Assembly: GCA_027022065.1 (NCBI GenBank)
Contig: JALVZS010000238.1
Coordinates: 1-9,679 of the forward strand
Source: a bacterium
Lineage (GTDB): Bacteria > Thermosulfidibacterota > Thermosulfidibacteria > Thermosulfidibacterales > Thermosulfidibacteraceae
Direction of reading: 5' to 3'
Length of the DNA: 9,679 bases
In this document: one piece after another, positions 1-9,679 of the stretch
Layout: the number at the start of each line of letters is the position of its first letter
How positions within the stretch are numbered: the stretch's first letter is position 1
Program-made: the position numbers and the translations under genes
The notes under the pieces: model-generated
Database searches by the model: none
What the model was told of the DNA's origin: nothing
What the model saw: only the letters and a program-made list of their open reading frames with translations

Positions 1-584
1 TCGCACTGGGTGTGATGTGGAGGCCCATACCTAAGTGGACCATAGAGGCGGATGTTGAGTGGGTCCACTGGGATAGAAACTCCTACATGAAACTTTCCTA
101 CAACAGGGCTTTATTTGAGAGGTACTTTAGAAAGTACCTTGCTGCAGCAGGCGTTCCCGCCCCTGTTATTGATGACTACATAAAGGAGCTGAAGAAGCAA
201 GGCGTTATACACAGGAGCCTCTACATAAAACGTAGGTGGCGCAACACCATAAAGTTCCATCTGGGTACCCAGTACAAGCTTAACGATGTGGTTACCTTAA
301 GGGCAGGCTACTTCTACGATCCTCCCACCGTTCCAGAGCACACCCTTGAGATGGGCTTTGCCGATGTGAAGAAGAGGATGTTCTCTTTGGGAGCCGGTTT
401 CAATCTGTGGCACGGTAAAGTTATTGTGGATGTTGCCTATCAGTACCTGATGACCGATGGCAAAAGGATCATTGGCTGGAACGACAGTGTAAACCTCAAC
501 AGGGACTTTGCTGGGGCTGATAACTCTATTTACATCAGGGGAAGTGCCCAGTACTACGCCATAACTGTTACATACAAATTCTAA
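1..584 (+). CDS. FadL/OmpP1-family outer-membrane long-chain fatty acid transporter, C-terminal part (5' truncated by window edge)
   Basis: The frame is open from the left edge (codons from base 3) and ends at TAA 582-584, giving about 193 residues of a family that is usually 400-450 long. The first visible residues, ALGVMWRPIPKW, resemble the FadL strand pattern in which a Gly-x-x-x-Arg-Pro is followed by W/D-rich beta-strands (DVEWVHWD). Further alternating strands follow (LGTQYKLNDVVTLRAGYFYD, FSLGAGFNLW, VIVDVAYQYLM). The protein ends in YYAITVTYKF, a C-terminal aromatic beta-strand typical of proteins assembled by the BAM machinery. Known members admit long-chain fatty acids or other hydrophobic molecules across the outer membrane. 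The GTG at 12 is internal, not the true start. A secreted lipase lies 13 bases downstream, which supports a lipid-uptake role. The exact substrate cannot be told, since TodX/XylN-type hydrocarbon channels share the fold. Confidence 0.85.
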   Translation, partial: ALGVMWRPIPKWTIEADVEWVHWDRNSYMKLSYNRALFERYFRKYLAAAGVPAPVIDDYIKELKKQGVIHRSLYIKRRWRNTIKFHLGTQYKLNDVVTLRAGYFYDPPTVPEHTLEMGFADVKKRMFSLGAGFNLWHGKVIVDVAYQYLMTDGKRIIGWNDSVNLNRDFAGADNSIYIRGSAQYYAITVTYKF

Positions 585-590
585 AGAGGG
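585..590 (+). promoter_or_regulatory. Ribosome binding site of the lipase gene
   Basis: AGAGGG sits in the 13-base gap between the FadL stop (582-584) and the lipase ATG (598), with a spacing of 7. It supports the ATG at 598 and co-transcription with the FadL gene. Confidence 0.7.
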
Positions 591-597
591 ATAGGCC

Positions 598-2823
598 ATG
601 AGGAGAAAGGGGCTTTTTATATGGGCGTTTTTAGTTGTGCTTGTGGGCCTTTCTTGGGCAGGTGATTATCCCAGCATAAAGGCCATACCCGAAAACCTCA
701 GGGGAGATCATCTCAGAGTGGTCTTTTCCATATCAGATAATCCCAGTGAGGCCATCCTTCCCTTTCCCAATGATCTTGTGTGGGCCATAGCGGCTTTAAA
801 GGCGGGTGTTTCGGAAAGCTATGTGCTTCTTCCTATAGAGGAGGCGGGCTCTGTTGAAGAAGCGGCTCTTTACGCCCTTATAGATGCCGCTCATCTTAAG
901 GGATTCTCTCCCAATATGTTTATAACCATCCCTATATCAAAGCCTGTTAGGCTGCTGAATGTGGAGGGGCATTATAAGCTCATAGATCTAACGGATCTTC
1001 AGACATGTGTGGCTTCTGGTATGAGGTCTCCCGCATGTGCCAGCATTGACGATACAGGAAGGCTTGTGTTTAGACAGCAGGGCTACCTTCTGAGGTTCTA
1101 TCCCGTGGAGCCTTTGGATCCTGGCCATAGGTATGTCTTTGTGCTGCTTAAGGGAATTGTTTCTGAAGCTGGACAGCTTTTGGAAAAGCCCTGGAACGCC
1201 TACATTTTTGATTCCGAAAAACCCCTCTATGGATATGCTGAAAAGATAAGGCAACAATTTGCCATTCTATATAATGTTCTCTCCAAGATTAATCCTCTGT
1301 TTACAAGGCAGAATGTGATTGTTCTTGTTCCCTTCACTGTTGCTTCAAAGACTTTTTCTTCCGCTGCCTTTGCTCTGATGCAGCAGTGCATTGAGCAAAA
1401 GGGTGCTTTGGGCAAAGAGGCGGTTGCATCCTGTGTTATGGAGAACTTTGCACTCTCTCCTAGCAGGTATCTTTTGAGCTACTCTGACACCAACGGCAAT
1501 GGTATTTTGGATGTGGGGGAGGAGCTTTATGGGCTTGTCTCTGCTGTAAAGGTAATTTTTGGTGCTTACCACAGGATTGTCTCGGATCCAGCTACTTTCT
1601 GTAGGGCTTTTGTGGATTATGGCCGTAGTACTGTAAAGTCTTTTAGGGTTGAAGCTTTAGGACTTTATGCTGGTTCTATATTAGGTGCGTATCTTGCTGG
1701 GGATCAAAGGGAATTAGCGGCTTATGTACAGAAGTTGATGGGAGATCCTTCTGTTAGGGATGATGTGCCCTTTGCTATTTACGGTGGTCAGTACTACGAT
1801 GGAACACTTCTCATGTACCAGCATGGACTTGGTGGCAGCAAAGAGATAGGTAAGTCCGTTGCCGATGTGATCCTTCATAAAACGGTTCTGGCCATGGATC
1901 TTCCCTGGCACGGTGAGAGAACACCTAAAACAGGGCCCTGTTCCCAGTCCGGAGCCTGCTTCCTCACCCCTAACATTCCTCAGGATAGGATCAACTACTA
2001 CCAGGCCATTGTGGATCAAACCATTCTCATGCTTGTGGCAAGAAGCGGCTGCCTTGATCTAAATGGTGATGGCCTCCCAGGGGATGTTCCCAGCAGCTTC
2101 TACTATGCAGGTATCTCTCTTGGCTCTATAACGGGTTCCATGTTCGTATCTCTGAATTACGCTGATCCCACGGGAGGGGTATTTAGAGTGGATAAAGCGG
2201 TTCTGAATGTGGGTGGAGCCAACTACGCCGCCTTGGTTGATGAGGCCTCAAGAGGGGCTATACAGCGTCTTATATGCTTAACTTTGGGTGGTGGGTCCTA
2301 TGGTGTAGATTGCCACGATGAGAAGCAGGTTGCCGCTTTTGCCTCTAAGGCTAGGCTATACATGTCCTACGACATGGTTTTAGGTCTTCTACAAACATTG
2401 CTGGATCCCTCTGATCCGGCCTATGTGGTGAGGGCAGCTTTGCCTCAGGGAGATGTGGCTGGGAAGATCATTTTACAGAATGCATTTAAAGATACCTTCG
2501 TTCCCAATGTGAGCAATGAGGCCCTTGCTAGGGCCTTTGGATACTCCCAGATGCACACCGTTTTGTCTTTGGCCGATGTCTCTACCGAGCCTGGCTGGTA
2601 TATGTTTGGTAACCAAGAGCATTGGGCTGTTCATTCCTTTATCTTCACAGAGGGACTTTACAGCCTATGCGGGCTTAATGAAGCAGCTTCCTATCAGGAA
2701 AAGCTTGGCTGTCTGCTGCATATATATCCAGAGCTTACGCCTTATGCTTCTTACATACAGCCCGATGTTCTTGAGGGTCTTATGAACGCCGCTTGGTATC
2801 AGACAGGCGGCTTTTTCTGGTGA
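598..2823 (+). CDS. Secreted alpha/beta-hydrolase, bacterial lipase / VolA-like lysophospholipase
   Basis: This 741-residue protein begins with a Sec signal peptide (MRRKG, hydrophobic core, SWA before GD near residue 21). The stretch from about 45 to 250 resembles the bacterial lipase N-terminal domain (AILPFPNDLVWA near 52-63). The hydrolase part shows an oxyanion-type HGLGG (409-413), a nucleophile elbow GISLG with Ser507, a likely acid Asp632 in FKDTFVP, and a likely catalytic His at 675 or 679 (QEHWAVH). Residues 297-308 fit a calcium EF-hand loop (DTNGNGILDVGE), and 487-496 is a second Asp/Asn/Gly loop (DLNGDGLPGD). Twelve cysteines in the mature chain, often in close pairs, fit an oxidising extracytoplasmic location. 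Vibrio VolA, a surface lysophospholipase, is encoded beside fadL, the same pairing as here. Unlike VolA, no lipobox cysteine follows the signal peptide, so this form is probably soluble periplasmic or secreted. The fold is fairly certain; the substrate is inferred. Confidence 0.82.
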   Translation: MRRKGLFIWAFLVVLVGLSWAGDYPSIKAIPENLRGDHLRVVFSISDNPSEAILPFPNDLVWAIAALKAGVSESYVLLPIEEAGSVEEAALYALIDAAHLKGFSPNMFITIPISKPVRLLNVEGHYKLIDLTDLQTCVASGMRSPACASIDDTGRLVFRQQGYLLRFYPVEPLDPGHRYVFVLLKGIVSEAGQLLEKPWNAYIFDSEKPLYGYAEKIRQQFAILYNVLSKINPLFTRQNVIVLVPFTVASKTFSSAAFALMQQCIEQKGALGKEAVASCVMENFALSPSRYLLSYSDTNGNGILDVGEELYGLVSAVKVIFGAYHRIVSDPATFCRAFVDYGRSTVKSFRVEALGLYAGSILGAYLAGDQRELAAYVQKLMGDPSVRDDVPFAIYGGQYYDGTLLMYQHGLGGSKEIGKSVADVILHKTVLAMDLPWHGERTPKTGPCSQSGACFLTPNIPQDRINYYQAIVDQTILMLVARSGCLDLNGDGLPGDVPSSFYYAGISLGSITGSMFVSLNYADPTGGVFRVDKAVLNVGGANYAALVDEASRGAIQRLICLTLGGGSYGVDCHDEKQVAAFASKARLYMSYDMVLGLLQTLLDPSDPAYVVRAALPQGDVAGKIILQNAFKDTFVPNVSNEALARAFGYSQMHTVLSLADVSTEPGWYMFGNQEHWAVHSFIFTEGLYSLCGLNEAASYQEKLGCLLHIYPELTPYASYIQPDVLEGLMNAAWYQTGGFFW

Positions 2824-2833
2824 TGCTTAAGTT

Positions 2834-3310
2834 ATGAAGCTTGTTCTTGTTTTTGTTGCGGTTCTTTCCGAGTTGGCATCTAGATTGTGCGGGAGGTTGA
2901 GGGCGGACGCCCTCTCCTCCCCTTCTTTCAACTTTTCTATGGTTGCCTCTGGTGCCCATGTAAGTGCAAGGATAGATAACGGGGGATTTAAGGTTTTGCC
3001 CTCCGGTGCCCATGTGGATTTGAAGATACACTTTAAAAGTGCAAAGGTGGCTTTGTTTGTCTTTCTAGGGCTTGTTTCTATTCCCACTGCCTTTGCCCAG
3101 GGGTGGATGTGGGTTGAGGGGCCTGTAGAGTATGCCGTTGCGGTAACCAGGTTCTTTGAAAGGTTTGAGACTGTGGTATTTCCTTATCCTGTATTCCGCC
3201 ATCTCTACAGAGGTAAGCCTCCCTTTAGTGTGAGAAGATTGGGCTTGAGGATCCTTCTCTATTTATCTGTTTTTGTTGTGCCTTTTATAATGCCCTTGAG
3301 GTGGAAGTGA
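2834..3310 (+). CDS. Unrecognised small envelope protein with repeat-containing N-terminal region
   Basis: I do not recognise this 158-residue protein. It lies 10 bases after the lipase stop and its own stop overlaps the next gene, so it belongs to the operon. Residues 1-16 (MKLVLVFVAVLSELAS) are hydrophobic. Residues 20-70 contain a hairpin-encoded stretch and a twofold 18-residue repeat (SGAHV at 39-43 and 57-61). Residues 68-88 look like a second signal peptide (KSAKVALFVFLGLVSIPTAFA before QG). The conserved-looking part is 89-158, with WMWVEGPVEY, an aromatic/Arg-rich middle and a C-terminal membrane segment (about 139-155, LLYLSVFVVPFIMPL) ending RWK. The ATG at 2834 has only a weak ribosome site. 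In-frame alternatives are the ATG at 2939 and the GTG at 3047, the latter giving a short leader directly before the Ala-x-Ala site. That part of the reading frame may come from an inserted repeat is an inference. Confidence 0.55.
   Translation: MKLVLVFVAVLSELASRLCGRLRADALSSPSFNFSMVASGAHVSARIDNGGFKVLPSGAHVDLKIHFKSAKVALFVFLGLVSIPTAFAQGWMWVEGPVEYAVAVTRFFERFETVVFPYPVFRHLYRGKPPFSVRRLGLRILLYLSVFVVPFIMPLRWK
2891..2921. repeat. Strong GC-rich inverted repeat (hairpin) inside the 5' part of the small envelope gene
   Basis: GGGAGG (2891-2896) pairs with CCTCCC (2916-2921), and GAGGGC (2899-2904) pairs with GCCCTC (2909-2914) around a GGAC loop. Only a TT/T internal mismatch separates the two arms, so 12 base pairs form. 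No T-run follows on either strand, so it does not read as an intrinsic terminator. It lies about 20 codons after the proposed start and could be a REP-like element or affect translation of this gene relative to the lipase. Confidence 0.65.
2943..3049 (+). repeat. Two-copy direct repeat, 54-bp period
   Basis: TTGCC-TCTGGTGCCCATGT at 2943-2961 recurs as TTGCCCTCCGGTGCCCATGT at 2996-3015, with the GGTGCCCATGT cores starting at 2951 and 3005. A second pair of related words, AGTGCAAGG (from about 2963) and AGTGCAAAGG (from about 3038), follows each core. At protein level this gives two 18-residue units starting SGAHV with about 8 of 18 positions the same. The repeat lies just downstream of the hairpin, and together they occupy about 160 bases between two hydrophobic segments of the encoded protein. 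Confidence 0.6.
3298..3304 (+). promoter_or_regulatory. Ribosome binding site setting the alcohol dehydrogenase start
   Basis: GAGGTGG within the last codons of the previous gene is 5 bases before ATG 3310 and 8 before ATG 3313. It rules out the GTG at 3301, which would overlap it, and favours 3310, where TGATG joins stop and start. Confidence 0.7.
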
Positions 3311-4452
3311 TGATGCACTTTGAGTTCTTCTGTCCTGTTAGGCTAATTGTGGGGGATAACGCTTTGGAAAAGCTCCCCTATATGTTGGAGAGCATGGGGG
3401 TATCAAAACCCCTTCTTGTTACGGACAGGGGGATAAAGGATGCGGGTTTGGCGACCAAGGTGGAAAGGTTACTTACCAGCTATGAGGTGTTTTACGATGT
3501 GCCCCCTGATTCCTCTCTGGATGTGGTTATGAGGCTTTACTCTTCGTATAACTCCTCCAGTTGTAACGGCTTAGTGGCCCTGGGTGGGGGCTCCGTTATA
3601 GATACGGCTAAGGGACTTTCTCTTGTTATATCGGCAGGTGGCGGGGACATATCCAAGCTTCAAGGTGTAGATGTTGTAAAAAAGAGAACGGTGCCCTTTG
3701 CTGTTGTTCCTACCACCTGTGGGACAGGGTCGGAGGTTTCAAGGGTGGCGGTTATAGAGGATAGAAAGAGCAGTAGAAAACTTGCCTTTGCCTCCGATGC
3801 GGTTTTTCCAGATGTGGTCTTTCTGGATCCCGCTGCGGTTGATACTCTGCCTCTGAGGCTTGTGGCCTCCACCTCTATGGACGCACTCACACATGCCATA
3901 GAGGCATACACCTGCATACAGAAAAATCCTGTAAGCGATGCTTTTGCCCTTTCTGCCATAAAGGAGATTTTTAAGAATGCTCCCATTGCCAAGGATGATA
4001 AAAAGGCGAGGTTTAGACTGCTTGTTGCATCAACGCTTGCAGGTGTGGCCTTTTCCAACTCCATGGTGGGAATGGTCCACTCCATATCCCACGCAATAGG
4101 AGGAGTGGAGGGTGTGCCTCACGGTGTGGCCAATGCCATTATGCTGCCTCACGTTATGAGGTTTAACGCTGGAAAGAGCAAAGAGGTTGCCGGCCTTTAT
4201 AGAGAGATCTTCTCTTACCTTGCGCTTTTTGTTGGGGATGTTGCGGGAAAAACCCTTGTGGATGCGGTGGACTCCCTCATGGGGAGGCTGGAGAAGGAGG
4301 CTGGGCTTCCCAGAAGGCTCAGGGATGTGGGGGTGAAGAGGGGAGACTTTGACAGGATAGCAAAGCAGGCGGTGCTTGACGGCTCCGCGGTGTTTAATCC
4401 CGTTTCCTTTGAGGAGGATGATGTAAAGGCCCTGCTTGAGGAGGCCTTCTGA
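3310..4452 (+). CDS. Iron-containing (group III) alcohol dehydrogenase
   Basis: The product (380 residues from ATG 3310, a normal family length) belongs to the Fe-ADH superfamily (FucO, AdhB, YqhD, 1,3-propanediol dehydrogenase). Visible signatures, numbered from Met 3310, are the nucleotide-binding ALGGGSVIDTAKG (about 90-102), the PTTCGTGSEV motif (about 134-143) and the metal-site residues Asp191 and His195 (MDALTHAIEAY), His257 (MVHSISHAIGG) and His271 (VPHGVANAIMLP). The D-x3-H and H-x13-H spacing matches the iron-binding set of FucO. It should catalyse reversible NAD(P)-dependent oxidation of an alcohol to an aldehyde in the cytoplasm, with Fe2+ as the probable metal. The aldehyde dehydrogenase starting within its stop codon suggests the two act in sequence. 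The substrate is not readable from the sequence; a medium- or long-chain alcohol is inferred from the FadL/lipase context. Confidence 0.93.
   Translation: MMHFEFFCPVRLIVGDNALEKLPYMLESMGVSKPLLVTDRGIKDAGLATKVERLLTSYEVFYDVPPDSSLDVVMRLYSSYNSSSCNGLVALGGGSVIDTAKGLSLVISAGGGDISKLQGVDVVKKRTVPFAVVPTTCGTGSEVSRVAVIEDRKSSRKLAFASDAVFPDVVFLDPAAVDTLPLRLVASTSMDALTHAIEAYTCIQKNPVSDAFALSAIKEIFKNAPIAKDDKKARFRLLVASTLAGVAFSNSMVGMVHSISHAIGGVEGVPHGVANAIMLPHVMRFNAGKSKEVAGLYREIFSYLALFVGDVAGKTLVDAVDSLMGRLEKEAGLPRRLRDVGVKRGDFDRIAKQAVLDGSAVFNPVSFEEDDVKALLEEAF
4438..4444 (+). promoter_or_regulatory. Ribosome binding site of the aldehyde dehydrogenase gene
   Basis: GAGGAGG inside the 3' end of the alcohol dehydrogenase gene lies 7 bases before ATG 4452. 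The start overlaps the upstream stop as TGATG, which fixes the start and implies translational coupling. Confidence 0.75.
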
Positions 4453-5843
4453 TGTTTGGGGAGCTTGTGGCAAAGCAGAGGGAATTTTTCCTCTCAGGAG
4501 GCACCTTGGGTGTTGAGGAGAGGATCAGGTATCTGAAAGCTCTTAAAGAGGTGGTGTCTGCTAGAGAGGATGCGATCTTGGCTGCTTTAAAGCTTGATCT
4601 TGGCAAGCCCAGATTTGAGGCGTATATCAGTGAGGTGGCCCACTTCCACATGGAGGTGGACTATGCCCTTTCCCACATAAAGCGCTGGAGCAGGCCTAAG
4701 AGGAGGCTAACACCTCTTCTTCACTTTCCCGCTGCGAGCTACACATACCGTCAGCCCTACGGCGTTGTCCTTATAATATCTCCCTGGAACTATCCCTTTG
4801 ATCTTGCCATGGTGCCCTTGGTTTATGCGGTGGCTGCCGGCAATACCGCTGTGGTGAAGCCTTCAGAGTTTTCTCCTAATACGTCCAGGATCTTGAGGGA
4901 GATTGTGGAGGAGGTGTTTCCAGAAGAGTACGTGAAGGTGGTGGAGGGAGAAGCCGATGTGGCCAAGGCCCTTTTAGAAGAGAAGTTTGACTACATCTTC
5001 TACACGGGAAGCCCTGTTGTGGGAAGATACGTCATGGAGGCGGCTGCCAAGAACCTCACTCCAGTAACTTTAGAGCTTGGGGGAAAGAGCCCTGTAGTCA
5101 TATGGCGCGAGGATAAGTGGGAGCTTGCCGTCAAAAGGGTTGTGTGGGGCAAGTGTTTTAATGCGGGTCAAACTTGCATTGCTCCCGACTATGTGGTGCT
5201 TGAGAGGGGAAGGCTTCAGGAGTTTGCGGATCTCTTCTCCCACTGGATAGAGGCCTTTTACGGAGACATTGCTAGTTCTGCCGATTACGCCAGGATAGTT
5301 AACGAGAGGCACTTTTACAGGCTCAAGATGATCCTAGATGCCGAAAGGGAAAACATTGTCTATGGGGGCGGGACGGATAAGGATAGGCTCTTTATAGAGC
5401 CCACCGTGGTGAAGGCCGATTGGGATTCACCTTCAATGCAGGAGGAGATATTCGGTCCCATCCTGCCCGTTATAGAGGCGGATGACCTTCAAGAGGTGAT
5501 ATCCAAGATCAACTCAAGGCCTGAGCCTTTGGCGCTTTATCTGTTTACCTCAGAAAAGGAGATACAGGATATCTTTATGAAAAGGGTGAGATCCGGTGCC
5601 CTGGTGTGCGGGGACTGCTTGGTCCACTTTGTTTCAACGTGGCTTCCCTTTGGGGGGATAGGCGAAAGCGGCATGGGCAAGTACCATGGGAGATGGGGGT
5701 TTGAGACCTTCACCAATAAGAAGGCTGTGATGAAGAGGGCAAGGATGCTGGATCTTCCTGTGAGGTATCCTCCGTATAAATCCTGGAAGCTATCGTTCCT
5801 CAGAAAGTTTGGTTCCTTTCTATGCCGTTTTGGTTGTATATAG
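4452..5843 (+). CDS. NAD(P)-dependent aldehyde dehydrogenase, class 3 (fatty aldehyde / coniferyl aldehyde dehydrogenase type)
   Basis: At 463 residues it has the length of ALDH class 3, shorter than the roughly 500-residue class 1/2 enzymes. Motifs appear in order: SPWNYPF with Asn113 (oxyanion hole), KPSE at 136-139 (cofactor-binding Lys), FYTGSPVVG (183-191), LELGGKSP with Glu208 (general base), GQTC with catalytic Cys242, EEIFGP (331-336) and PFGGIGESGMGKYHG (399-413). The N-terminal block KRWSRPKR (77-84) is also typical of class 3. It would oxidise an aldehyde to the carboxylic acid in the cytoplasm or at the membrane face, taking the product of the adjacent alcohol dehydrogenase. The C-terminal tail (about 445-463, Phe/Leu/Arg/Cys-rich) could be an amphipathic membrane-touching extension, as in fatty aldehyde dehydrogenases. 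The tail's last 14 codons overlap the convergent cbiZ-like gene, so run-on is also possible. Confidence 0.93.
   Translation: MFGELVAKQREFFLSGGTLGVEERIRYLKALKEVVSAREDAILAALKLDLGKPRFEAYISEVAHFHMEVDYALSHIKRWSRPKRRLTPLLHFPAASYTYRQPYGVVLIISPWNYPFDLAMVPLVYAVAAGNTAVVKPSEFSPNTSRILREIVEEVFPEEYVKVVEGEADVAKALLEEKFDYIFYTGSPVVGRYVMEAAAKNLTPVTLELGGKSPVVIWREDKWELAVKRVVWGKCFNAGQTCIAPDYVVLERGRLQEFADLFSHWIEAFYGDIASSADYARIVNERHFYRLKMILDAERENIVYGGGTDKDRLFIEPTVVKADWDSPSMQEEIFGPILPVIEADDLQEVISKINSRPEPLALYLFTSEKEIQDIFMKRVRSGALVCGDCLVHFVSTWLPFGGIGESGMGKYHGRWGFETFTNKKAVMKRARMLDLPVRYPPYKSWKLSFLRKFGSFLCRFGCI
5800..5843. other. 44-bp 3'-3' overlap of convergent genes
   Basis: The + strand aldehyde dehydrogenase stops at TAG 5841-5843, while the - strand cbiZ-like gene runs to its TGA at 5802-5800. 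The shared bases encode both C-termini. No intrinsic terminator hairpin with a T-run was seen here for either transcript, so convergent read-through is possible. Confidence 0.85.
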
Positions 5844-6996
5844 CTTTGTAGAGGGCCTTTATTACCGCTTTCTCCATAAGCTCGGCTATCTTTGTGTGGC
5901 CTCCGCAGGAATTGAGGATCTTGCCCTTAATGCCAGGAACAATGATTATGTTGTCCGTTCCCGTGCCTGTTGCTGTTGCGCCCGGCGTGTAGCTGCTTTC
6001 CACGTTTAGCTCCTGTAGCACCGCTGTCTTTGCCTCCGTGATCCTTATTATGGCCTGCAGCATGGCCTTCTGGGAGAGCCTTCTGTTGGTGAATACCAGA
6101 ATGTTGATGGTTCCCACATGCCTCCATTTTCCGTTTTCCTCAAGCCACTCTCCCTTATCTATTCCTGCCCTTCTTGCATTTCCCAGAACACCGGCGGTTG
6201 CAACAGCCCACACCACAATGCTTCCAAACCGCTCTTCAGCGTATCCTAGATTGTCCATATCCACGCCTGTGAAGAGCAAAAGCGTGTCATTCTGAGGGAT
6301 GTTTAAGGCCCTGCATGCAATAGCCTTGAGCCTTTTGACGCTGCAGTCCTTGCCCCAAAGTGCTGGGTGCAGATACACATTGCCCACAAAGCTTGCCTTT
6401 TTTATGCCCTCCAGGGTGGATAGCACCGGCCTTGGCTTCATCTTCACCAAAAAGGCCTTCTGAGGAATCTTTCCCACCTTGTACCTGAAGATACCCGCCT
6501 TTATGCCCTTTATGGGGGATGCTATCGGGGTGTATTTTTCCTGGTATCTTGTGTTTGAAAGCTGATAAAGCCACCATCCTCCTAGTGAAACATAGGCGGA
6601 GCTTAGACACCTTTTGTTTAGGTGCTTTTTTAGATATTCCAGCAGGTTGCCCGCATCCTTGCTCCTTGATCCTGCCCACACGCCAAAGTAAACTTTTCCT
6701 AGGCTTATCCACCTGACTATATCTCCGGTGAAGTTCCTGTAAACCATCAAAGGAAAAAGCTCTTGAGGAAACATAATGACTTCAGGCTTTGCCCTGGCCC
6801 AAATTTTTAAAACTTTTGCGTCTTTGTAGGGATTTCCCATGTAGCACAAAAGCCTCCAGCCTTTGCCAAACTCTTTCACAACCTTTTCCACATCCCTGCA
6901 TAGGCAACTGTTTCCATATGCAAACACCACCTTTTCGGCTCTGGCTGCAGAGGCAAGGCTTAAGGTTAAAACCAGCATTACTGCTAGCTTTTTCAC
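5800..6996 (-). CDS. cbiZ: Exported CbiZ-type adenosylcobinamide amidohydrolase with extra N-terminal domain
   Basis: I place the start at GTG 6996, giving 398 residues. AAGGAGG precedes it closely, and the GTGA overlap couples it to the upstream gene. A Sec signal peptide follows at once (KKLAVMLVLTLSLASAARA, cleavage before Glu21). Residues 175-385 are CbiZ-like: VLSTLEG (about 191-197), NARRAG (273-278), VGTINILVFTN (about 294-304), a TEAKTAVLQEL helix (320-330), ATGTGTDNIIIV (about 342-353) and CGGHTKIAEL (about 364-373). CbiZ cleaves the amide linking the aminopropanol arm to the corrin ring, converting adenosylcobinamide or pseudocobalamin to adenosylcobyric acid for salvage; known forms are cytoplasmic. 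Residues 21-170 are an added alpha/beta region with Cys31-x-Cys33 and Cys51 that I cannot assign; its alternating strands and helices could be Rossmann-like. The signal peptide and pairing with a membrane-anchored CobN-like protein suggest periplasmic action. The family call is strong; location and exact substrate are inferred. Confidence 0.85.
   Translation of the reverse strand: MKKLAVMLVLTLSLASAARAEKVVFAYGNSCLCRDVEKVVKEFGKGWRLLCYMGNPYKDAKVLKIWARAKPEVIMFPQELFPLMVYRNFTGDIVRWISLGKVYFGVWAGSRSKDAGNLLEYLKKHLNKRCLSSAYVSLGGWWLYQLSNTRYQEKYTPIASPIKGIKAGIFRYKVGKIPQKAFLVKMKPRPVLSTLEGIKKASFVGNVYLHPALWGKDCSVKRLKAIACRALNIPQNDTLLLFTGVDMDNLGYAEERFGSIVVWAVATAGVLGNARRAGIDKGEWLEENGKWRHVGTINILVFTNRRLSQKAMLQAIIRITEAKTAVLQELNVESSYTPGATATGTGTDNIIIVPGIKGKILNSCGGHTKIAELMEKAVIKALYKAIYNQNGIERNQTF
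6993..6996 (-). other. GTGA stop-start overlap coupling the cobN-like and cbiZ-like genes
   Basis: On the - strand the bases 6996 to 6993 read GTGA. GTG is the cbiZ-like start and TGA is the cobN-like stop. Termination and re-initiation on one message are expected, so the two products are probably made together. Confidence 0.8.
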
Positions 6997-9679
6997 TGCG
7001 CCCTCCTTATCCCTGTGGTGAAAATAATGGAAAGCAGAAGGGCTGTTACAACCACCGCCCATGGGATACCCGATGACGGGGGAGCTTTTTTGGACTTTTC
7101 CTCCTTAAGCTCAATGCCCTTAACGATTTTTTCAACGCCCACTTTTAGCTTTTCCAGAAAACTGCCTCTCTCCTTGGCTGCCTGGACGATGCTCTTTCCG
7201 ATGGCCTTTCTTATTTTTTGGGAAAAGGCCTCAACCAGCTCAGGGGAAGCAACCCCCGGCAACGACAGTATCTGCACCACAAACTGGTTCAAAAGAGGAT
7301 TGTTGCACGTGTGCTCACAGCAGGCAACGCCCTTTTCCACAACGCTTTTTGCGTACTCCTTTGCCAGCGCTATTTTTATCCTTTTCGGAGCCTTCCAGTA
7401 GCCCTTTCTGATGGCCTCCAGCATCCACGCGGTTATGGCCTGATAGGCCCATGGGTTGCTCTTATTGAAAAAGCCTTTGAGGTTGAGCCCGTACTTGTCT
7501 TTTACATAAACGTCAAAGGCCTCCTTCCACTGGTAGTCTTTTACGGCAAAGGGCGTGGTAACCTGCCATCCCCAGAGATACTCAACGAACTTTTCCATCT
7601 CTCTGGCTCCCGCATATCCTTCCCTCATCATGCCCTTTATCCACTTGGGGTTGAAGTAGCGGGTGCGCATCTCAACAGAGAGGGTTTCTCCTATATCCTC
7701 CCTCCACACATGCTTTCCATTGCTTCTTGCCACTTCCACCTCTGGAAAGCTTCCCTTCACAGCCTTGACAGCAAGGGCAACTCCTCCGAGGTACTGGAAG
7801 ACGTCATCGTTGTCCAGGGCCCTGTAGAGGTTTGAGGATATGGAGTGCACAGCAATATCCACATCTGCCAGATTGTACTGATAAACAAGCTTGAGCTGTT
7901 TTCCCCATACATTCCTGCCGTAGGCGAAGCTTGTTTTGCTTATAAACACGCCTGCGATTTGCGTGTCGTTGTTCCAGAAGCCTGTGTTGGCCGTAAGAAG
8001 GGAAACACCCGTTCCGTAGTCTCCCAGCTTTTCTGAGAACACCCTTGTGAGGGAAAGCCTTCTCGCTTCTTCTTTAGGAATGTGCTTCTTTATAAGCGCT
8101 TCCTCTATCAGTCTTGCATTTTCCGATATGAAGTTTTCCACATCCTTTAACAGTGCAGCCCTTCTTATGGCCTCATCCAGCAGTTTAAGCTTGTCCGGAA
8201 ACATATCTCTATAGAGCCCGCTTGCATGTATCAACACATCTATTCTGGGCCTTTTCAGGAGCTTTGCCGGGATGGGCTCTACCCCTACAACTTTGCCGTT
8301 TTTATCCCAGACGGGCTTCATCCCTATAAGATATAGGGCCTGTGCTTCGTTGATCCCTTCGTTCCTTATGGTTTCTGTTGCCCAAAGGACGATGGAGACT
8401 TTCCTAGGATACCTATGGTGCTTCTTCAGGTAGTCTTTTAACATATCATCCACCAGCTTCTTTGCTTTTCTCCACGCCTGAGTGCTTGGAACCTTGGAGG
8501 GATCAAAGGCGTAGAAATTATAGCCTGTGGGAATGGCAAGGGGATTCACAACGGGATCGTTGCCCTCTGCAGAAGGTATGTATTTCCCAGACAAAGCTTT
8601 CAAAAAGTTTTCCATCTCATTAGGACCGGACCGCATAATTCTTTCGTATGCATCCTTCGTTCCTATAACCTTGGCAAACGCTTTTACTTCCTTTTCTGGT
8701 GGTGATTTGCCAAAGGTGTGAAGTCCAACGGGAATGAGATTCTCCTTTAGCCTCTGGAGGTAGTGCTCAAGCTTTTCAATGTCTTTGGCCTTAAAGTGCT
8801 TTATTCCAAGCTCTTCAAGAAGATGTAGCTTTCTTGCTTTATCCTCAATATCTTTAAGTTTTTCTTTCTTTATATCCTCCGAGCTTGAGGACTCATACTC
8901 GCCTATAAGCTCGTAAAGTTTAGCATAGGATCTGTATAGCCCCGCCTTTTCTATTGGTGGTGTGAGATGGTCAATCACAACGGCCCAGCCCCTTCTTTTC
9001 GCCTGTATCCCTTCACCCACATCGTCCACCACATAAGGGTATACATCTACCAGATCCTGGATGAGCACATGGGGAGGGTCGTCGCTGTCCAATCCAACCT
9101 CCTTGCCTGGAAGCCACTCAAGGGTTCCGTGGGTACCAAGGTGCACCACCGCATCTGCCCTGAATACTTTTTTGAGCCATAGGTAAAAGGCGATGTACTG
9201 GTGGTGGGGATACACATCGTGGGAGTGGTACAGCTTCCATGCATCTCCGGATACACCCCTTTGAGGCTGCGGTGCTATAACGACATTGCCCAACCTAATA
9301 ACTGGAAGAACAAAACTTCCCTTGTAGGTCATAATGGTGCAGTTATCCGGTGCTCCCCACTGCTTCTCAACCTGCTTCCTGAAGCCTTCTGGAAGCCTTT
9401 TGTACCACTTCTCGTAGGTGGATATGGGAAGGAGCACTATTTTTCCGCTGTTTATAAGCCTTTTCAGCTCCCCAGGTGCCCATGTTCCAACGTTTCTTCC
9501 TGCGAGGATTATCAGCCTCTTTATCTCCTCGGCGTTTGTGCTGCCCTTTACCAAGTATCCCTCTTTTCTCAGCCTTTTAAGTATCACCTCAAGGCTCTTA
9601 AACACATTGAGGTAGCTTGCACCGATGTTGTTCTTTCCTGGATTGTGGTTGTAGTAGAGTATGGCGATGCGTTTTTCGC
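6993..9679 (-). CDS. cobN: CobN / magnesium-chelatase H-like protein with C-terminal membrane anchor (5' truncated by window edge)
   Basis: About 894 C-terminal residues are visible; the gene enters from the right edge and ends at TGA 6993. The frame continues upstream of the GTG at 9605 with KRIAILYYNHNPGKNNIGAS, a conserved CobN core motif, so that GTG is not the start. Numbered from that Val, motifs are HLGTHGTLEWLPGKEVGLD (155-173), TGYNFYAFDP (360-369), LWATETIRNEGINEAQAL (407-424), RPRIDVLIHASGLYRDMFP (452-470), LLTANTGFWNN (536-546), NLYRALDNDDVFQYLGGVA (592-610) and NPWAYQAITAWMLEAIRKGYW (717-737). CobN/ChlH proteins bind a tetrapyrrole and insert Co or Mg with an ATPase partner; none is visible here. 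After the catalytic region come ACCEHTCNNP (761-770), a Lys/Glu/Pro linker and one membrane helix (about 848-864) ending RRAQ. Classical cytoplasmic CobN lacks such an anchor. Membrane-bound CobN-like proteins exist, and HmuS of Bacteroides is a heme dechelatase, so removal of metal is an alternative role. Confidence 0.9.
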   Translation of the reverse strand, partial: EKRIAILYYNHNPGKNNIGASYLNVFKSLEVILKRLRKEGYLVKGSTNAEEIKRLIILAGRNVGTWAPGELKRLINSGKIVLLPISTYEKWYKRLPEGFRKQVEKQWGAPDNCTIMTYKGSFVLPVIRLGNVVIAPQPQRGVSGDAWKLYHSHDVYPHHQYIAFYLWLKKVFRADAVVHLGTHGTLEWLPGKEVGLDSDDPPHVLIQDLVDVYPYVVDDVGEGIQAKRRGWAVVIDHLTPPIEKAGLYRSYAKLYELIGEYESSSSEDIKKEKLKDIEDKARKLHLLEELGIKHFKAKDIEKLEHYLQRLKENLIPVGLHTFGKSPPEKEVKAFAKVIGTKDAYERIMRSGPNEMENFLKALSGKYIPSAEGNDPVVNPLAIPTGYNFYAFDPSKVPSTQAWRKAKKLVDDMLKDYLKKHHRYPRKVSIVLWATETIRNEGINEAQALYLIGMKPVWDKNGKVVGVEPIPAKLLKRPRIDVLIHASGLYRDMFPDKLKLLDEAIRRAALLKDVENFISENARLIEEALIKKHIPKEEARRLSLTRVFSEKLGDYGTGVSLLTANTGFWNNDTQIAGVFISKTSFAYGRNVWGKQLKLVYQYNLADVDIAVHSISSNLYRALDNDDVFQYLGGVALAVKAVKGSFPEVEVARSNGKHVWREDIGETLSVEMRTRYFNPKWIKGMMREGYAGAREMEKFVEYLWGWQVTTPFAVKDYQWKEAFDVYVKDKYGLNLKGFFNKSNPWAYQAITAWMLEAIRKGYWKAPKRIKIALAKEYAKSVVEKGVACCEHTCNNPLLNQFVVQILSLPGVASPELVEAFSQKIRKAIGKSIVQAAKERGSFLEKLKVGVEKIVKGIELKEEKSKKAPPSSGIPWAVVVTALLLSIIFTTGIRRAQ
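7001..7006 (-). promoter_or_regulatory. Ribosome binding site setting the cbiZ-like start
   Basis: The - strand reads GGAGGG here (within AAGGAGGG), 4 bases before GTG 6996, inside the last codons of the cobN-like gene. It favours the GTG start over the upstream start at 7062, which would put 22 polar residues ahead of the signal peptide. Confidence 0.75.

Follow-up and report, generated by a model that had tools for sequence, protein, structure and literature searches.

The window analysed here, 9679 bases long, is the first part of a 17774-base contig from a draft genome of 1.57 Mb (88% complete); numbering continues past the window. On its reverse strand lie a cobN-like gene and a cbiZ gene, which close a six-gene operon in the order riboswitch, TonB receptor, DUF2162, ExbB, DUF2149, CobN and CbiZ. 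A 10-N assembly gap interrupts cobN between the window and the remainder of the contig. The features, all on the reverse strand, are as follows.

14428-14232, reverse strand: cobalamin riboswitch RF00174 (92.2 bits versus 31.5)
14187-14157, reverse strand: strong terminator hairpin between the riboswitch and the likely receptor start
14121 (likely start) to 12121, reverse strand: TonB-dependent receptor
12121-11471, reverse strand: DUF2162 protein
11478-10912, reverse strand: MotA/TolQ/ExbB protein
10949-10620, reverse strand: DUF2149 protein
6993..9677, reverse strand: in-window part of the cobN-like gene, body domains and C-terminal membrane helix
7005..7065 (approximate limits), reverse strand: codons for the one hydrophobic helix at the CobN C-terminus, then RR
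7001..7008, reverse strand: cbiZ ribosome-binding site AAGGAGGG, within the cobN 3′ end
6993..6996, reverse strand: GTGA, shared by the cobN stop and the cbiZ start
5800..6996, reverse strand: cbiZ, predicted exported adenosylcobinamide/cobamide amidohydrolase of 398 aa (PF01955, invariant residues, predicted fold)

The cobN TGA (6995-6993) and the cbiZ GTG (6996) have GTGA in common, and AAGGAGGG stands 4 bases ahead of the GTG. The CbiZ N-terminus, VKKLAVMLVLTLSLASAARA-EKVV, has a positive n-region, a hydrophobic core and an A-R-A site, giving a predicted signal peptide at residues 1-20, and the CobN C-terminus, ...PWAVVVTALLLSIIFTTGIRRAQ, reaches a best 19-residue Kyte-Doolittle mean of 2.0. 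The first-pass annotation had reported this overlap with its ribosome site, an Ala-x-Ala signal peptide on CbiZ and a hydrophobic helix closing CobN, and all three held up. Beyond the gap, on the same contig, the 5′ end of cobN begins with an ATG at 10633 and encodes a signal-like start, MFRISITVILALLYCFPLWA-KD. Signal sequences were assigned by visual inspection and with a crude rule, one that also flags 239 of the 822 other open reading frames of at least 200 aa (29%), a comparison set that includes true membrane proteins.

The receptor scores 238 bits against a heme-receptor model versus 168.6 against TIGR01779, the B12-receptor model (cut-off 599.7), and lies below the cut-off of every receptor model listed, TIGR01779 included. 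It has no His between FRTP and NPSL, which says little about the ligand, since the FRTP/NPSL pattern could not be located in either of the two HmuR controls. The DUF2162 motif PCPxC is present in 14 of 14 aligned cobalamin-type proteins, also in those of the window contig and of pGLOV01, and Prevotella HmuT is without CPxC; DUF2162 may carry metal or electrons. The AlphaFold model of DUF2162 (pLDDT 82) was of no help in placing the fold: no Foldseek hit had an E value under 0.1, and the VIA comparison with helical transporters reached a Z of 8.6 at most. The operon contains no HmuY gene. Rfam matches to SNORA57 and mir-1549 scored below gathering and were discarded as chance.

On the forward strand, a convergent cluster (window 3-5843) comprises the end of a FadL-type porin, a lipase-like protein that weakly matches VolA/Pla-1, an iron alcohol dehydrogenase and an aldehyde dehydrogenase, the last of which overlaps cbiZ by 44 bases at their 3′ ends. 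This neighbouring cluster was not observed after cbiZ in either of the two relatives described below.

CbiZ and the CobN-like protein

The genome holds a single CbiZ copy. PF01955 covers residues 187-381 in a profile search (156-157 bits against a curated cut-off of 27), and in a 28-row alignment the protein keeps the family-invariant N206, T243, N273, R276, T296, N298, E321 and K323 together with the invariant ATGTGTDN, GGH and E372. Its AlphaFold model (mean pLDDT 78) falls into two parts. Residues 159-388 match 6-aminohexanoate-oligomer hydrolases, DmpA, BapA, ThnT and ornithine acetyltransferase (Z 12-14.6), with the amide-cutting NylC/DmpA/BapA/ThnT group at Z 13-14.6 and ThnT being a pantetheine hydrolase; since most of these matches cut amides, the predicted fold would fit an amidohydrolase role. 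Residues about 19-133 of the model resemble individual lobes of periplasmic binding proteins (Z 9-11); this N-terminal domain had no match in Pfam and the CbiZ sequence no useful match in the PDB. Within the lobe, residues 31-50 (about 6906-6845, reverse strand) carry a CxC...C with xGNPY that is conserved in three family members and is a possible disulfide or metal site.

The CobN-like protein is likewise encoded once in the genome and matches PF02514 at 889 bits. Its best PDB match is HmuS; its active-site motif, LDNDDVFQYLGG, is that of solved CobN, where HmuS has LSLDHVYEFMGG instead. At the positions of HmuS His-1209 and Glu-1212, the CbiZ-linked CobNs have DNDDxFQYLGG, varying slightly, which resembles the DSDDYYQFEGG and DSDDYFQYHGG of solved cobaltochelatases, and the HmuS motif LSLDHxxEFMGG is absent from CobN. 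Also absent from the linked CobNs are the His-Gly-Arg heme site of the HmuS neck and its Met-rich insertion, for which they reach no more than 5 Met per 100 aa, compared with 25 in Prevotella HmuS but only 8 in Aureibacter. At HmuS His-538 (HxGTHG) CobN does agree, reading HLGTHG, which is common to most of the superfamily. With a CobN-type motif and the HmuS residues missing, heme dechelation is unlikely, and these residues argue for a corrinoid, not heme, as the CobN ligand.

In the CobN tree, a single clade (98/98) unites window CobN with the rest of the CbiZ-linked CobNs and includes pGLOV01; this clade neighbours HmuS yet is separate both from HmuS and from cytoplasmic CobN; HmuS has two rows in this tree, BchH and Cupriavidus are long branches, and the window row consists of two pieces joined across the assembly gap.

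Conservation and distribution of the pair

Across nine genomes of the phylum, CobN occurs in all three of the family and in none of the six others, and always in this operon. The six-gene riboswitch operon is kept in all three family genomes, with identical order in both relatives, whose CbiZ proteins are 49-51% identical to that of the window. The cobN/cbiZ overlap recurs in both relatives, and signal-like N-termini on CbiZ and CobN and the C-terminal CobN helix are found in all three genomes. Because CobN is, among these nine genomes, confined to the family, and the overlap, signals and gene order recur, we conclude that the pairing is not due to chance. Sister-family CbiZ is short, has no signal and sits beside CobO-, BtuF- or CbiP-like genes (neighbours named by eye from sequence), which suggests that the export signal and extra N-terminal domain belong to the anchored-CobN lineage.

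The conserved adjacency that the first-pass annotation had proposed looking for extends well beyond these relatives. We analysed the best 80 of 287 relatives in a GTDB genome scan, and in these, an anchored-type CobN lies no more than 3 kb from an exported CbiZ, and on its strand, at 18 loci outside the window's family, mostly from Desulfobacterota; three of the loci have intervening genes, and in several the CobN or CbiZ gene is cut by a contig end. The cobN-cbiZ pair is not unique to the window and recurs in many sulfate-reducing bacteria; Desulfogranum marinum DSM 2058 (L048) is one carrier of the operon. In the further loci among these best 80, the exported CbiZ is usually fused behind a BtuF-like domain, as in a fusion for which Pfam places Peripla_BP_2 at 46-267 and CbiZ at 341-542. 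A signal-like start by the crude rule was present in 47 of the 52 long BtuF-fused CbiZ proteins with a visible start, and nearly all short-type CbiZ proteins were without one (again the best 80 of 287). Judging from the models and domain matches, both exported forms would include a module of the binding-protein type, which in Desulfobacterota is a complete BtuF-like domain and in the window protein a single lobe.

Which gene of the pair comes first differs between lineages, and a 4-base cobN/cbiZ overlap was found in either order at 11 loci, the two relatives included (best 80 of 287). A cobalamin riboswitch lies ahead of the TonB gene in eight related CbiZ-CobN operons (seven loci retaining the region, and L081) and in pGLOV01, and in neither of the two hmu operons examined. 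Of 18 genomes with an exported CbiZ but no adjacent CobN, 12 have no CobN anywhere, and pGLOV01 carries the CobN set but no CbiZ; the two activities are therefore separable and their joint action is not obligatory. A plasmid search for CbiZ returned one short Dehalococcoides copy only.

Several variants stand apart. Exported CbiZ without a BtuF fusion occurs in a Desulfovibrio sp. MAG (L097, 9803-11014) and in Thermodesulfobacterium hydrogeniphilum (L082, 9854-10702), one of the two lipoprotein-like (LPAC) and the other with a plain signal peptide. In three archaeal MAGs (L079, L080 and L099), CobN lies close to a CbiZ without a signal-like start and has no terminal helix itself, a cytoplasmic version of the pairing with a different CobN clade. 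BtuF-CbiZ fusions such as L040 (9041-11056) continue for about 130 residues beyond the CbiZ domain, and in L040 these match no Pfam family.

A putative periplasmic corrinoid-salvage module

Elsewhere in the genome, a second cobalamin-riboswitch operon (100 bits) encodes BtuC, an ABC ATPase and a BtuF-like protein, and the late-salvage proteins CbiB, CobT and CobS are also encoded. With these present, a path can be drawn from the outside to a rebuilt cobamide, with the cut made outside the cytoplasm. De novo CbiD, present in both relatives, was not found in the source genome, and G008 yielded no BtuC proper. A search of the 88% complete genome for a CobS/CobT or ChlI/ChlD partner was negative, the best TIGR02442 score being 32.7 bits against a cut-off of 779. 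The second riboswitch operon also contains an OprB porin, an ABC-2 transporter pair and a gene for a CbiK-type cobaltochelatase (L129, G000 contig C14, 8024-9004, reverse strand; PF06180, 258 bits) with a signal-like start, the second cobalt chelatase of this genome predicted to be periplasmic. Relative G007 has a counterpart with a signal-like start (L132, 1770-2759, forward strand), judged by sequence likeness. The L129 protein calls to mind Desulfovibrio CbiK-P.

Taken together, we consider it fairly probable that the pair forms part of a periplasmic corrinoid-salvage module. When B12 is low, the riboswitch operon would be read and the TonB receptor would take cobamides into the periplasm. 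There, exported CbiZ would cut the amide between the corrin ring and the aminopropanol-nucleotide loop, yielding cobyric acid and discarding the lower ligand, and the CobN-like protein, anchored in the inner membrane and reaching into the periplasm with its main body, would bind the corrin ring. The ExbB-type channel, DUF2149 and DUF2162 with its CPxC would probably couple CobN to the proton-motive force, a drive that would stand in for the ATP-driven CobS/CobT motor, which cannot work outside. BtuFCD would then import the trimmed corrinoid, which CbiB, CobT and CobS would rebuild in the cytoplasm. As predictions from sequence, the periplasmic location and the corrinoid ligand class are well supported, and a periplasmic CbiZ step moderately so; export itself, the CbiZ reaction outside the cytoplasm, the motor coupling and CobN action on the ring are steps that we infer. 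For CobN, binding and hand-over of the ring seem likeliest, and cobalt insertion or exchange is possible. We regard as speculative the stronger version in which CobN, DUF2162, ExbB and DUF2149 form a periplasmic cobalt inserter or exchanger, driven by the proton-motive force, that acts on scavenged corrinoids while CbiZ trims the lower-ligand arm; if true, cobamides would be both remodelled and re-metallated in the periplasm without ATP.

The first-pass annotation had proposed such a periplasmic module, and that part gains from the predicted export of both proteins, the riboswitch, the TonB receptor that opens the operon (sought, as were btuFCD genes, which lie elsewhere in the genome) and the late-salvage genes. 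Its comparison with HmuS and heme fails at the diagnostic HmuS residues. It had also proposed that CobN might grip the ring during the CbiZ cut, or that the metal might be swapped or removed; exported CbiZ is found, too, in genomes without any CobN. It had counted a signal-less full-length CobN with cobS/cobT nearby against the module; CobN proved to have a signal-like start, and CobS/CobT are missing.

The genomes with exported CbiZ alone, the CbiZ-less pGLOV01 set and the flipping gene order would also fit two independent modules under one riboswitch with no shared step, CbiZ remodelling cobamides for BtuFCD and the CobN set doing another corrinoid job, for example inner-membrane passage. 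We hold this to be possible but rather unlikely, as the stop/start overlaps in either order (11 loci in the best 80 of 287) and the single clade of CbiZ-linked CobNs speak for a lasting link. An ordinary cytoplasmic CobN chelatase subunit and cytoplasmic CbiZ with misleading signal-like sequences would suit the cytoplasmic location of characterised members, and the signal calls here come from inspection and the crude rule; against it, both proteins' signals are kept in three species and missing from sister-family CbiZ, CobST and ChlID are lacking, and CobN falls outside the cytoplasmic clade, which leaves this reading hardly credible.

Two further alternatives take HmuS as their model. In a heme-iron-harvesting hmu operon, CobN would be an HmuS-type dechelatase and CbiZ incidental, as the DUF2162-position, ExbB, DUF2149 and CobN set, the PDB match of CobN and the heme-leaning receptor might suggest. 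The missing HGR, Met-rich insertion and LSLDHxxEFMGG, the CPxC kept by all cobalamin-type DUF2162 proteins and not by Prevotella HmuT, the cobalamin riboswitch and the lack of HmuY make it very improbable, and we rejected it on the HmuS-specific residues and the riboswitch. Cobalt harvesting, with CobN extracting cobalt from periplasmic corrinoids and DUF2162 importing the metal, would make use of the invariant CPxC, but corrins bind cobalt far more tightly than heme binds iron, a B12 riboswitch would have the vitamin destroyed when scarce, and CobN carries the active-site motif of cobalt inserters. HmuS offers a precedent for metal removal (PMC12583661), and we still judge this reading very improbable.

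Comparison with known systems

Cobamide remodelling has so far been treated as a cytoplasmic process, and the CbiZ enzymes studied to date were, to our knowledge, studied as cytoplasmic proteins. Window CbiZ shares PF01955 and its invariant residues with CbiZ of Rhodobacter sphaeroides and archaea, which often adjoins corrinoid transport genes, but adds a predicted signal peptide and the N-terminal lobe. The literature searched describes no exported CbiZ and no CbiZ-BtuF fusion, which is not proof that none exists; a possible coupling of CbiZ activity to uptake has been suggested (PMC7733943). Anchored BtuS/HmuS proteins (PMC6460266, PMC12583661) are on record, as are cobN-TonB clusters for which a cobalamin role has been suggested (PMC3403914, PMC8620254). 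The parts were already known, and it is the exported, coupled, riboswitch-controlled combination that appears undescribed in the papers searched. It suggests that certain bacteria strip or remodel the B12 they scavenge while it is still in the periplasm, before they import it. Exported CbiZ, in most cases BtuF-fused and frequently paired with an anchored CobN, would shift the first remodelling step to the periplasm, which would bear on which corrinoids these bacteria share or take.

CobNST shares the CobN family and the DxDDxxQ active-site motif with the protein described here, which differs in lacking CobS/CobT, in its predicted export, with a signal-like start, and anchoring, and in belonging to another clade of the tree. 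The predicted periplasmic, membrane-anchored CobN homologues of Bacteroides fragilis (BtuS) are similar in topology, but are tied to heme iron and not to CbiZ or a cobalamin riboswitch (PMC6460266). Closer is the cobN-exbB-exbD-tonB cluster of Trichlorobacter (Geobacter) lovleyi pSZ77/pGLOV01 (PMC3403914), which has the riboswitch, TonB receptor, DUF2162, MotA/ExbB, DUF2149 and a CobN of the same clade, but no CbiZ. The hmuYRSTUV operon (PMC12583661; Prevotella L140) is likewise built from a TonB receptor, an anchored CobN homologue of a neighbouring clade, a membrane protein at the HmuT position, and MotA/ExbB and DUF2149 proteins; the present operon differs in its cobalamin riboswitch, its CbiZ, the CPxC of DUF2162 and the absence of HmuY, and its CobN lacks the HmuS-defining residues and Met-rich insertion. 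The authors of the HmuS study call the function of orphan CobN proteins unclear (PMC12583661); the pair described here would supply a concrete corrinoid hypothesis for them, and a matched pair of machines, one for heme and one putatively for corrinoids, is available to compare.
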